Origin: Tubiluchus corallicola
Taxonomy: Eukaryota > Priapulida > Priapulimorpha > Priapulimorphida > Tubiluchidae
Reading direction: 5' to 3'
DNA length: 64,000 nucleotides
Assembly: GCA_030141605.1 (NCBI GenBank)
Contig: JAQGDQ010000006.1
Span: forward strand, 124,001-188,000
The notes below the pieces were generated by a model. That model was not told the origin of the DNA. It saw nothing but the letters and a program-made list of their open reading frames with translations, and did not search any database. Below are positions 43,288 to 48,121 of this stretch, piece by piece. Position numbers and translations under genes: made by a program. Numbering within the stretch: the first letter of the stretch is position 1; every line of letters starts with the position of its first letter.

Positions 43288-44502
43288 ACAAAAATTAATT
43301 ACAAGTTAAATTTTTTTGGTATTTGAATTCTTCATTATCTTTTTATGTCGTGTACACTTGAATGCTGATGCTTGTAACTTCACATTGTTAGTCTTAAAAA
43401 AAATTTTGGAGCTCCAGCATGCCACCCAGCATCAAATGTCAATTCTGCTTGTAAATAAATAAAACTGCAAATTAGGAATTGTCAAGTTGGAATCCATTCA
43501 GGCCTGTGTAAAATTGACAGTACACGCATTCAAGTATTATAATAAAGATACCACTGCTGCTGTACTTCTATTTGAGGTTGTCAACTGTTGGTTTTGTATC
43601 CCTTTGAGTACCTTATTATATGAGACTGAAAACTGCAATCCTGTTACGTCAAGTTCATTATAAAAAATACAAAATTTTGTTTGTTATCTTGTCATCAGTT
43701 GTATTGTGTTTCAATTAACATTAACCGTAAAATATTAAAAAGGCAAAAAATTCTGTTAATGCGCTTTTGGCTCAATTTTTAAAAAAATATTTTTAAAATT
43801 TAAAGCAGTTTATTTATCCAACCACTGTAATTTTTTGTACACTAAATCAATTTTTATATAATATAGTTTTTTCAAGCTATGCTATTTGTTCAATGTAGAC
43901 ACTGATAGTGACAATAAAATTCAAGTACCCATATAAGCTTTATTGTGCAATCATCGAGTGCCACCCGCTGATAAGAAAAAGCAGTACCCTTTGAAAGATT
44001 TATCAGTTACTCAGATATGCAGCGAGTGTTGTTTTAGAAATAGTTTTGTGGTTGAATTCTGTAAAAACTGCAGTTTACTTAACTGATGGACACAAGTTTT
44101 TTGCATAAAAACATATAGTATCATCACTGGAAAAACCTTTAGAAAATAAAAGTGAACCAAGTAGAAGTCTAAATAGAACGAACAGATGATCTTTGTACTG
44201 TAGCACGGTAGATGCTCACTCTGTGAAAATGTTTGATTATAAACTTAAAAAAAAATTAATTTATTAAACTTTCGTAAATTTAGTCACGACTAATAACTTT
44301 GAGAGCTTCTAGTCTCAGTGGCCTTTTCCATTCAATAAACTGTCTTTATATATATAATTAATTATGATTTTGTATTTATACAGTTTTTCTGTAATGGTAT
44401 GTCTTTTTGTTGAAGGAATAAATACAAATACAATTGTGTTTTAAACTGAAAAACATAAGAAATCCAGAACATTGAAAATGAAAAGTTATCCGATGATGCG
44501 TT

Positions 44503-46729
44503 GTTACAACTGATAATGTAATAAACGCCCGATAATGTAATAACGGAAAAATTAATGCATAATGTAAGAAAAATCAACGCATAATGTAAGACACCCAAAA
44601 CGCGTAATGTAATAACACGAAGTTTAACGCATATTGTAACACAACAAAAATGCATTTATAATGTAATAAGAAATTCTAACTGATTTATGTAATAACTAGC
44701 TGAAGTAATGTTGCTTCGTACCATAGGTGTAGGGCTGTGGGAATGGTATCCTCCCTTTCGCTATTACTACGGTTCGTCTCTATTATGTTTCCCACTAGTA
44801 TGATTCGCTAGTGGTATGTTTCGCCACTACTACCTTTTCCCAGTAAAATTTTTCTACTATGTTAAAACCTGATCCATAATCAAATTGTTTTTTGTTCATC
44901 AGTGGTATAGTTCGCCAGAATTAACGTTTTTTTTGTTTTTTTGCGGCTCAACTCATAGATATGACGACAATTTTTGTGGATAACTTTTAAATCTTCACCC
45001 ACATGGAGAGCACCAAAACTTGAATGAAAATAGTAAATGTCCTACACTGTACGACACTATAATGAAAGGGTCACAGTAGTAGACCACAACTTTCAGATGT
45101 CAGCTTCATGCCATTTTGTATATGTTAATAAATGCCAGCGGTTGTAGGAGTAATCGGCCGCAGCGATGCAACCTTTTATAGGTGGCATCTTGCATGGACA
45201 GACAATCAACAGGACTGGCCATCTTGATACGTGGTGCTTCTGCCTTGAGTAATATAAAGGTAAATTAAACAACGGTACCATTAAATTTTGGCTTTCGTAG
45301 GCCCAATGGCAAGACAGGGTCGGGACAAGTGATTATGAGGTGCTAGTCACGTGACTCCGAACGGCTTCCTTCAAGAGTTATGGCTTCCCAAGTTTAGTGA
45401 CGTCGATAATCTTGTCCACATATTTTTCATAGTACCAACATGGTTGTGGAGAGTTAGTTTGGCAACTCTTGTGAGTCACCTCGTTGGATAGACAACTGAT
45501 GGGATAATGACCACTGGCAACCATCTTGGTAGGTGATTGTTAAACAATGGTGTCTTAAAATTTTGGTCCTCGACCGCTTAAAGGCCCACAGGCCTGATAA
45601 GCATAGTGTAGGTCTTTACTGAGTGGCCTTGTTCGCACCTGCTTATTGCTCCAACAGCTTATTTAGGCAGCTACCTATATTCATTCCTTTACACAATATA
45701 CAATATTATAACAGCAGGAAGATAACAAGCTGAAAACACATGCTGACCCTTTAACTGTTGATTGAATTTAATTGTAATCACAGTTTTTGTACTTTGCAAT
45801 AACCCTATCGCCGAATTCAAGGTGATTTTCACCCGCAAATTCGCAACAGCCCATTCAGTGGGTTACTTTATGGGCTGTTATAATTGTTGAAGCCTGTGAA
45901 CGAAAAAGCGCGGGAAGCTGATGGGCTTCACGACTTCGGCGACTATCTGAAAATGTCTAAAAGTCCAACAGTCGCCAAACATGTACCAAACGTTCGCCAA
46001 ACAATTGCAAAAACATTCACAGGTGTTCGCCATTGTCGTCAAAAGGTTGGCGGATTTAGAAAAAATTGAAAATTTAAAGGTTGTCGCCGGAGTCGCAAAC
46101 CACTTCGCCAAACTGTCGTAAAGTGTTGTAACGTGCACGAAATGTGCGCAAATTTCACGTACATTATTCGCGATGTTTATCAACAATTTGAAAATTCTCA
46201 AAAACTTGGTGAACAAATTGCGACGCTTCTGAGAATTTTGCGACGACTTTGCGCCTATTTTTCAGCGTTTCTAAAAACCTCGTTTGTCCCGCACTTCTGC
46301 GAAAATTCCCTGAAATTGTCGTGAAATGATCGCAATATACTCGACAAGGCGAATGTCACGTGTCGCAGAAGTCACAAACATGCAGTACGAATTTCGTGCA
46401 ACATCCTCGTGATTTTCGCTGGAGAAAAAAGCCCGAAACTCGCAGAAATGTGGAGAACTTTGCACGAATGAACTGCGGCAAAACACAGTCGAGGGAACGT
46501 TTTGACAACTGCTGGACTTAGAGAAATTTCAATCGACGCAAAAAAGTCTGGTCGTGAAACCCTTTCTTAATATGTTCATATTCCAAAAAACAAAAATTAC
46601 TTTACTATATATAAGAAAATTGTACCAAGTAACATTAATCTCTTCTAGTTATTACATCTGTGGTGTTACAATATGTGTTAATTTTTTGTTATTACATTAC
46701 CGGGCGTTTATTACATTACCAGTTGTAAC
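44503..46729. mobile_element. 2.2-kb structure with 42-bp terminal inverted repeats
   Basis: Left arm 44503-44544 and right arm 46688-46729 are reverse complements with 40 of 42 bases matching (arm starts GTTACAACTGATAATGTAAT, and includes AAACGCCCG). Weaker matching continues inwards, and the left end has at least six spaced copies of an AATGTAATAA-like motif, as in subterminal transposase-binding arrays. The core (45780-46560) is richer in CG than its surroundings and full of TTCGCCA, GCGAAA and TCGCAA words in both orientations. No transposase frame was found; open frames across the core are repeat-derived. Likely a non-autonomous DNA element of a family I cannot name. Confidence 0.7.
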
Positions 46730-47147
46730 ATGCAGCGTGTCCTTGCACATGCGTACATTACAAATATCATGTAGCTTTATGAAATCCACACGCGAATAAA
46801 AATTAACGGCTAATAAAATCAGCAAGTGAAAAGAATTAAAAGTTCTAAGTACAGTAAATGCTAGTTAACAAAATATATTTACTCATATGTAGCATTATTT
46901 TGAAAATTTAAATGTAGGACTATAGTCACAGCTTATTTAAACAAATTACGCAGTTTATTTTAATCACATACTAAAATTGCAACATTACCAAAGCTCCAAT
47001 GTAAGTTCTCTTATGTAGCTTATCGCTGCTTACGTAACTTACGTAGGTAAATTTTATAGTTTATGCACGAAATGCACAAACACGCATCAATCTGCTCATG
47101 TTTTGCAGCCTTTTAAATTTTACTCCGCATATTGTTTAGTAAAAATG

Positions 47148-48121
47148 TAGGTAAAAATTGCACAGGAAAAATGGCACAAATAGAAAAGTAGGCAAAAATG
47201 ACACAAGAAAACTGGTAGGAAAAACGGTACGGTAAAAATGACACAGAAAAAAAAGACACAGGGAAAAATGGCACACTTAGTAATATATATGCTTAGGGTT
47301 AGGGTTAAAGTGACATATAATTATTTTAGCTCTGCTGAGGAAGCTCAGCGCAGTTTGTTTGCTTGTCTGTTGTGACAGTAAGCCTATTACTCAAAAATTA
47401 TCTAACAGACTTCGAAGAAACTTTGTGAAGAAAAGTGAGTATAGTGTGCCAAAATGGGAATCTTTTCGCTGGTTCTTTTTTCTCAAAACTTGACAGAACA
47501 CCACATACAAGAAAACATTCGTGAAGCACTTTGTGGCGATCTTAGAGAGAGTGTTTAGTACTACGTTTGGTTCCAGATGCATTTCCAGAAATTCTCTATA
47601 ACCTTTGCTTATTAATGCATACAGCCTTATAAGTTGATAAACACCATGTAGAACATTCGTGCATTATTAATTATAAATCCATTTAATGAACCAATATTTT
47701 GCATTTGCTAGATACCAATACTTGTACATTTTTGTATATTTGCTTGTTTATCTTTGAGTTAGATTTTTTGAATCAAAAGAATCGGACGAATAAGATTGGG
47801 ATTGTTCAGCTTTGGCAGAAATCTGCTTCCTACTGAGCGCATTATAGTTTTATTATAGAAATCAACTGCATCAAAATAAGGTGGTATATGCCATTTTTTC
47901 TTATTTTTCCATTTGTGCCATTTTTACCATGTCATTTTTTTCTGACTTTTCCTTTTGCGCTATTTTTTTCCTGTGGCATTTTTATTATGCCATTTTTTCC
48001 TACTTCTCCATTACTGACCATTAGTGCCATTTTTCCTGTGCCATTTTTACCCGTGTCATTTTACCATGCCATTTTTTTCCTGTGCCGTTGTTATCTGTGT
48101 CATTTTTACCCCGTACCATTT
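47148..48121. mobile_element. Element with inverted arrays of an AAAAATGGCACA motif
   Basis: The left array (47148-47279) repeats GGAAAAATGGCACA-like units on the plus strand. The right array (47884-48121) has the reverse complement (TGTGCCATTTTTCC) many times. Between them, about 600 bases of unique sequence include a GCTCTGCTGAGGAAGCTCAGC stem and TTAGGGTTAGGGTTA. Inverted subterminal arrays suggest a non-autonomous transposon that binds its transposase through clustered sites, or a large foldback element. Confidence 0.65.

Follow-up and report, generated by a model that had tools for sequence, protein, structure and literature searches.

The odd CG-rich patch in the 64-kb window (the whole stretch of DNA analysed here) very probably derives from two old, defective cut-and-paste DNA transposons, one lying inside the other, with the composite having multiplied afterwards. 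Two nested, candidate-new families of known kinds account for the structure without calling for a novel type of element. The original prediction had hesitated between an undescribed element family and a nested pair of elements. The second proposal was right: the core is an insertion that duplicated a TWA target, and the genome contains the site in both its occupied and its empty state. All genome-wide searches were run on the 343.5-Mb eukaryotic assembly that holds the window. The features of the locus are:

44502..46730, + strand: outer non-autonomous DNA transposon with ends TGTTAC...GTAACA; 2229 bp in total and 1570 bp once the nested core is subtracted
44502..44550, + strand: left terminal inverted repeat (TIR), 49 nt, 92% complementary to the right TIR
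46682..46730, - strand: right TIR, pairing with the left TIR
44497..44501, unstranded: left copy (TGCGT) of the 5-bp target-site duplication (TSD); degraded, with 3 of 5 bases matching the right copy
46731..46735, unstranded: right copy (TGCAG) of the 5-bp TSD of the outer element
44515..44695, + strand: subterminal array of seven AATGTAATAA-type motifs, counted at <=2 mismatches
46649..46717, - strand: three AATGTAATAA-type motifs of the outer element in reverse complement, counted at <=2 mismatches
45912..46567, + strand: nested second element (CG-rich core; palindromic TWA-TSD family with a 735-bp consensus), ~77-78% identical to the consensus, left end eroded
46568..46570, unstranded: right TAA of the nested element's TWA TSD; the left copy is lost here and intact in L016, L018 and L029

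The outer element belongs to an old, dispersed family

The predicted inverted ends are real, and the arms are one base wider at each end than originally described. The subterminal AATGTAATAA array was likewise confirmed, with seven copies on the left and three reverse-complement copies on the right; across the whole 64-kb window the motif has 37 matches on both strands at <=1 mismatch. A full-element query against the whole genome returned at least 112 matching pieces at many loci, typically at 66-82% identity, which extends over much of the element. Searching with the 23-base outer end TGTTACAACTGATAATGTAATAA gave 62 matches at <=1 mismatch, compared with 0 for a reversed-pattern control, and 150 matches at <=3 mismatches, compared with 14 for the control. 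Among 15 two-ended copies, flank identity points to a TSD of 5 bp only (0.55 vs 0.25 for the control), and lengths of 2-4 or 6-11 bp were rejected (0.17-0.28). Perfect 5-bp duplications flank the copies at L025 (TGCAC) and L027 (GTGTG), and the window copy has TGCGT/TGCAG. Most outer copies have TGTTAC termini, and the interiors of elements having the same ends differ greatly, as is usual for non-autonomous families. In kind, the outer element is an ordinary non-autonomous DNA transposon, non-coding and old.

The CG-rich core is a separate family

A query consisting of the core alone matches loci that lack the outer arms. In 17 aligned core copies, similarity is 0.66-0.89 inside the element and drops sharply to ~0.5, as expected by chance, directly beyond its ends. 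The consensus, the only one built in this analysis, has a length of ~735 bp and terminal inverted repeats AAGCCAGGCTTTCAC...GTGAAACCCTGGCTT, and the ends read AGCCAGG[G/C]TTTCAC. The end pattern has 90 matches in the genome and 0 for the control, confirming the core as a dispersed family; 14 of the 90 lie in one satellite array on contig C2088. This tandem array (G000:C2088:71868-72644, 14 matches listed) has a 54-bp period and a unit that starts with the core-family end (TAAATCCAGAGTTTCACGGGG), and the satellite was apparently born from a MITE end. An exact TWA TSD (TTA/TTA or TAA/TAA) is present in 9 of 13 two-ended core copies, with the middle base agreeing in all nine; lengths of 2 or 4-9 bp were rejected in the same copies, and no length besides 3 bp stands out. 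Individual copies are only ~73-74% identical to the consensus, and the family is therefore old. The CG-rich core is a separate, older family and, in kind, again an ordinary non-autonomous DNA transposon.

The 3-bp TWA duplication, which is the stated signature of PIF/Harbinger elements (PMC4482050), together with the terminal inverted repeats, suggests that the core is a hairpin MITE of PIF/Harbinger (Tourist-like) type, for which the mobilising transposase would be of that class. As in Tourist-like MITEs, the inverted ends are short, the target is AT-rich, and the element is non-coding and hairpin-forming. It differs from typical MITEs, which are shorter than its ~735 bp, and in being made of CpG words phased at 11 bp; in addition, no autonomous partner with the core's ends was found in the genome, and the core end AGCCAGGnTTTCAC was unmatched to named families here. 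That the core might instead be a satellite or functional non-coding DNA, spread passively, is a very improbable reading. Its internal 11-bp periodicity and the C2088 array that opens with the core end would fit such an origin, but core copies lie scattered as single units bounded by defined inverted ends, and their matching TWA duplications already contradict it.

The core inserted once, at a TAA site

Within outer elements, the core is found at one shared site, between two copies of TAA. The left junction reads GAGGCGC|TAA|AACCAGG in L016, L018 and L029, and the right junction, CCTGGCT|TAA|TGATGAGCACC, is exact in L018 and L047 and carries 1-3 mismatches in other outer elements. When both flanks were joined with one TAA and searched against the genome, matches ran across the junction in other outer elements. 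The empty site with its single TAA reads GTCGAGG-GCTAATGC---GCACCACCTTCTTATTCC in L046. Clean empty sites occur in few of the fetched loci (L046, L072 and L038), with L049 and L105 being indel-rich at the junction. A shared occupied site together with a single-TAA empty site indicates that the core inserted once and was then co-amplified. The window copy has kept its right TAA (46568-46570) and its left junction is eroded; because the left TAA is lost, the nesting of this copy is deduced from its siblings.

It could be argued that there is a single family, to which the CG-rich core belongs as an integral component and from which deletion has sometimes removed it. Nine fetched outer elements do share the core at the same place, and L025 and L026 retain only its right end, so that deletions did occur; in some related elements most of the core apparently disappeared after its insertion. 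However, the core is also found outside outer elements, in copies that have sharp ends and TWA duplications of their own, and core-less outer copies read cleanly through a single TAA, which random deletion would not restore exactly. The empty site thus already largely refutes a single family, which we consider extremely improbable. The original prediction had proposed separate genome-wide searches with arm and core, and held that independent occurrence of the two at many loci would reveal chance nesting. Each is indeed found independently at many loci and the families are independent, but together they form a composite that is passed on as a unit, not an isolated case of nesting.

The core is a palindrome of phased CpG words

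The sharply different composition that had singled out the core was borne out, with a G+C content of 0.43 (0.35 for the window) and a CpG observed/expected ratio of 1.53-1.60, compared with 0.68 across the window and 0.75 in the element's left part. So was the weave of TCGC and GCGA words, which together occur 17 times in the window's core and 42 times in the family consensus, versus 3.8 and 4.8 in mononucleotide shuffles. No consistent long reading frame exists in the consensus, and a coding core was rejected, the single frame that was scanned giving only a sub-threshold Pfam match. At the gathering score, Rfam detected no RNA family anywhere in the 64-kb window. Along its full length, the consensus forms an imperfect hairpin (-294 kcal/mol vs -206 +/- 8 for dinucleotide shuffles, z -10.6), with helices pairing 1-29 with 708-735 and 32-70 with 665-703 and a second palindrome at ~200-396. 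Eight individual copies fold likewise but more weakly (z -1.2 to -5.5; window copy -2.5).

Spacing within the consensus is strongly periodic, with TCG recurring at lags of 11 (z 16) and 22 (z 9.8), CGA at lag 11 (z 10) and AAA at lag 10 (z 5), and the A-tracts are in the same phase as the 11-bp CpG words. Summed over 36 individual copies, CG pairs at lag 11 number 192, compared with roughly 60 at most lags. From the hairpin fold and the 11-bp spacing it follows that the weave of TCGC and GCGA arises from a palindrome, imperfect but spanning the whole element, of degenerate words 11 bp apart. The earlier description of the core as neither coding nor a simple repeat holds, but the core does consist of degenerate repeats phased at ~11 bp that fold into a palindrome.

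Whether the phased words do anything is a different matter. They may be working parts, such as candidate sites for a transposase or host factor on one face of the helix, or bent DNA; the strength of the TCG, CGA and AAA periodicities in the consensus and the lag-11 excess across the individual copies are consistent with this. The words could also be by-products of palindrome growth by small duplications, since growth by 11-bp repeat units gives an identical pattern, and conservation in the consensus is not focused on them. We consider a working role possible but doubtful. An improbable extension of it is that the core stands for a separate class of long hairpin MITEs, in which the array of helically phased CpG words and A-tracts was selected, for example as a putative multi-site platform for transposase or host chromatin factors, and that carriage inside a second transposon would have given the core a second route of spreading. 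Searches of the literature on nested or palindromic MITEs and on phased arrays yielded nothing specific.

Two further observations concern the core and its surroundings. At consensus CpG sites, CG is kept in 61% of cases in the embedded copies (L013-L019, L021, L029 and the window) and in 43% in free copies, whereas overall identity to the consensus is similar (72.6 and 73.7%) and GpC sites show no gap (54 and 58%). The difference suggests that CpG sites decayed less in the composite lineage, in a comparison where copies are non-independent and the consensus derives mostly from free copies. Just downstream of the element, at 47120-47290 of the window, a short degenerate repeat with a AAAATGGCACA-like word is visible by eye.

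Transposase search and superfamily of the outer element

Longer relatives with a transposase, which the original prediction had suggested looking for, were found for neither family. No outer copy examined contains a transposase, the ORFs of the fetched copies offering nothing convincing. None of the best 150 integrase (rve) matches in the genome lies between listed facing outer termini, and none of the eight genome matches to DDE_Tnp_4 (PF13359) is near a listed core TIR. Extending 15 one-ended outer loci by 4-5 kb revealed no autonomous partner. These genome checks of termini against rve and DDE_Tnp_4 matches yielded an autonomous copy of neither family; such a relative would share the ends TGTTACAACTGATAATGTAATAA or TWAAGCCAGGSTTTCACRGGG, and an autonomous PIF/Harbinger partner of the core would encode a DDE_Tnp_4 transposase and a Myb-like ORF. 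At L090 (G000:C1024:672300-676000), two outer-type ends, separated by 3.4 kb, face each other across a long interior that is rich in simple repeats and has no transposase. An rve match and an old core-less outer element lie ~22 kb apart in six near-identical segments (G000:C1752:505290-527613, with the same spacing on C1831, C2072, C2107, C1974 and C2074), implying a recently multiplied segment of >22 kb. Having been tried as an autonomous lead because of their identical 22-kb distance, the six loci turned out to be copies of a larger duplicated segment in which the outer copy is simply included.

Several superfamilies were considered for the outer element. hAT and Mutator elements generate TSDs of 8 bp and 9-11 bp, respectively, and were rejected because flank identity at 8-11 bp is at control level. 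Transib elements have a 5-bp TSD and TIRs starting with CACWATG; the TSD length fits, but the outer element has TGTTACAACTG as its ends.

A tentative possibility is that the outer element is a non-autonomous Ginger2/TDD element, mobilised by a Gypsy-integrase-like transposase. Its termini conform to TGTNR and its TSD falls within the 4-5 bp of that group. According to PMC2836005, TDD-4 and TDD-5 have 5-bp TSDs, like the outer element, other Ginger2 elements have 4-bp TSDs, and Ginger2 TIRs span ~50-180 bp, the outer element having TIRs of tens of bp. Against this, there is no integrase-like transposase between matching ends, either among the best 150 rve matches or in the ORFs of the fetched copies; the animal Ginger2 families in that paper have 4-bp rather than 5-bp TSDs, and the AATGTAATAA subterminal array is not among the features described in the part of it consulted. 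Moreover, assignment to a superfamily takes more than matching ends and a matching TSD length. Since no transposase was found for the outer family, the resemblance to Ginger2/TDD, drawn from termini and target sites, is a lead and not a classification.

Discussion

Taking two nested transposons as the preferred explanation, their history can be outlined. The outer element (44502-46730) would have depended on a transposase acting in trans that recognised its TGTTAC ends and its AATGTAATAA array, an array that may bind protein as the phased CpG words of the core might, with each transposition making a 5-bp target duplication. The inner hairpin MITE (45912-46567), putatively of the PIF/Harbinger TWA-TSD type, jumped into a TAA site of an outer element, and the composite then spread to many loci through transposition of the outer element, leaving one decayed copy in the window. 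As in other nested or composite non-autonomous DNA transposons, one element sits inside the other and both are carried by later transposition; there is no difference in principle, and only the particular pair is new here.

Much of this finding is ordinary repeat biology. What it adds is that an odd CG-rich patch becomes a documented nesting event, in which occupied and empty sites date two transposon families relative to each other, and that the spacing of CpG words by one helical turn is a testable curiosity bearing on how long hairpin MITEs grow or are recognised.
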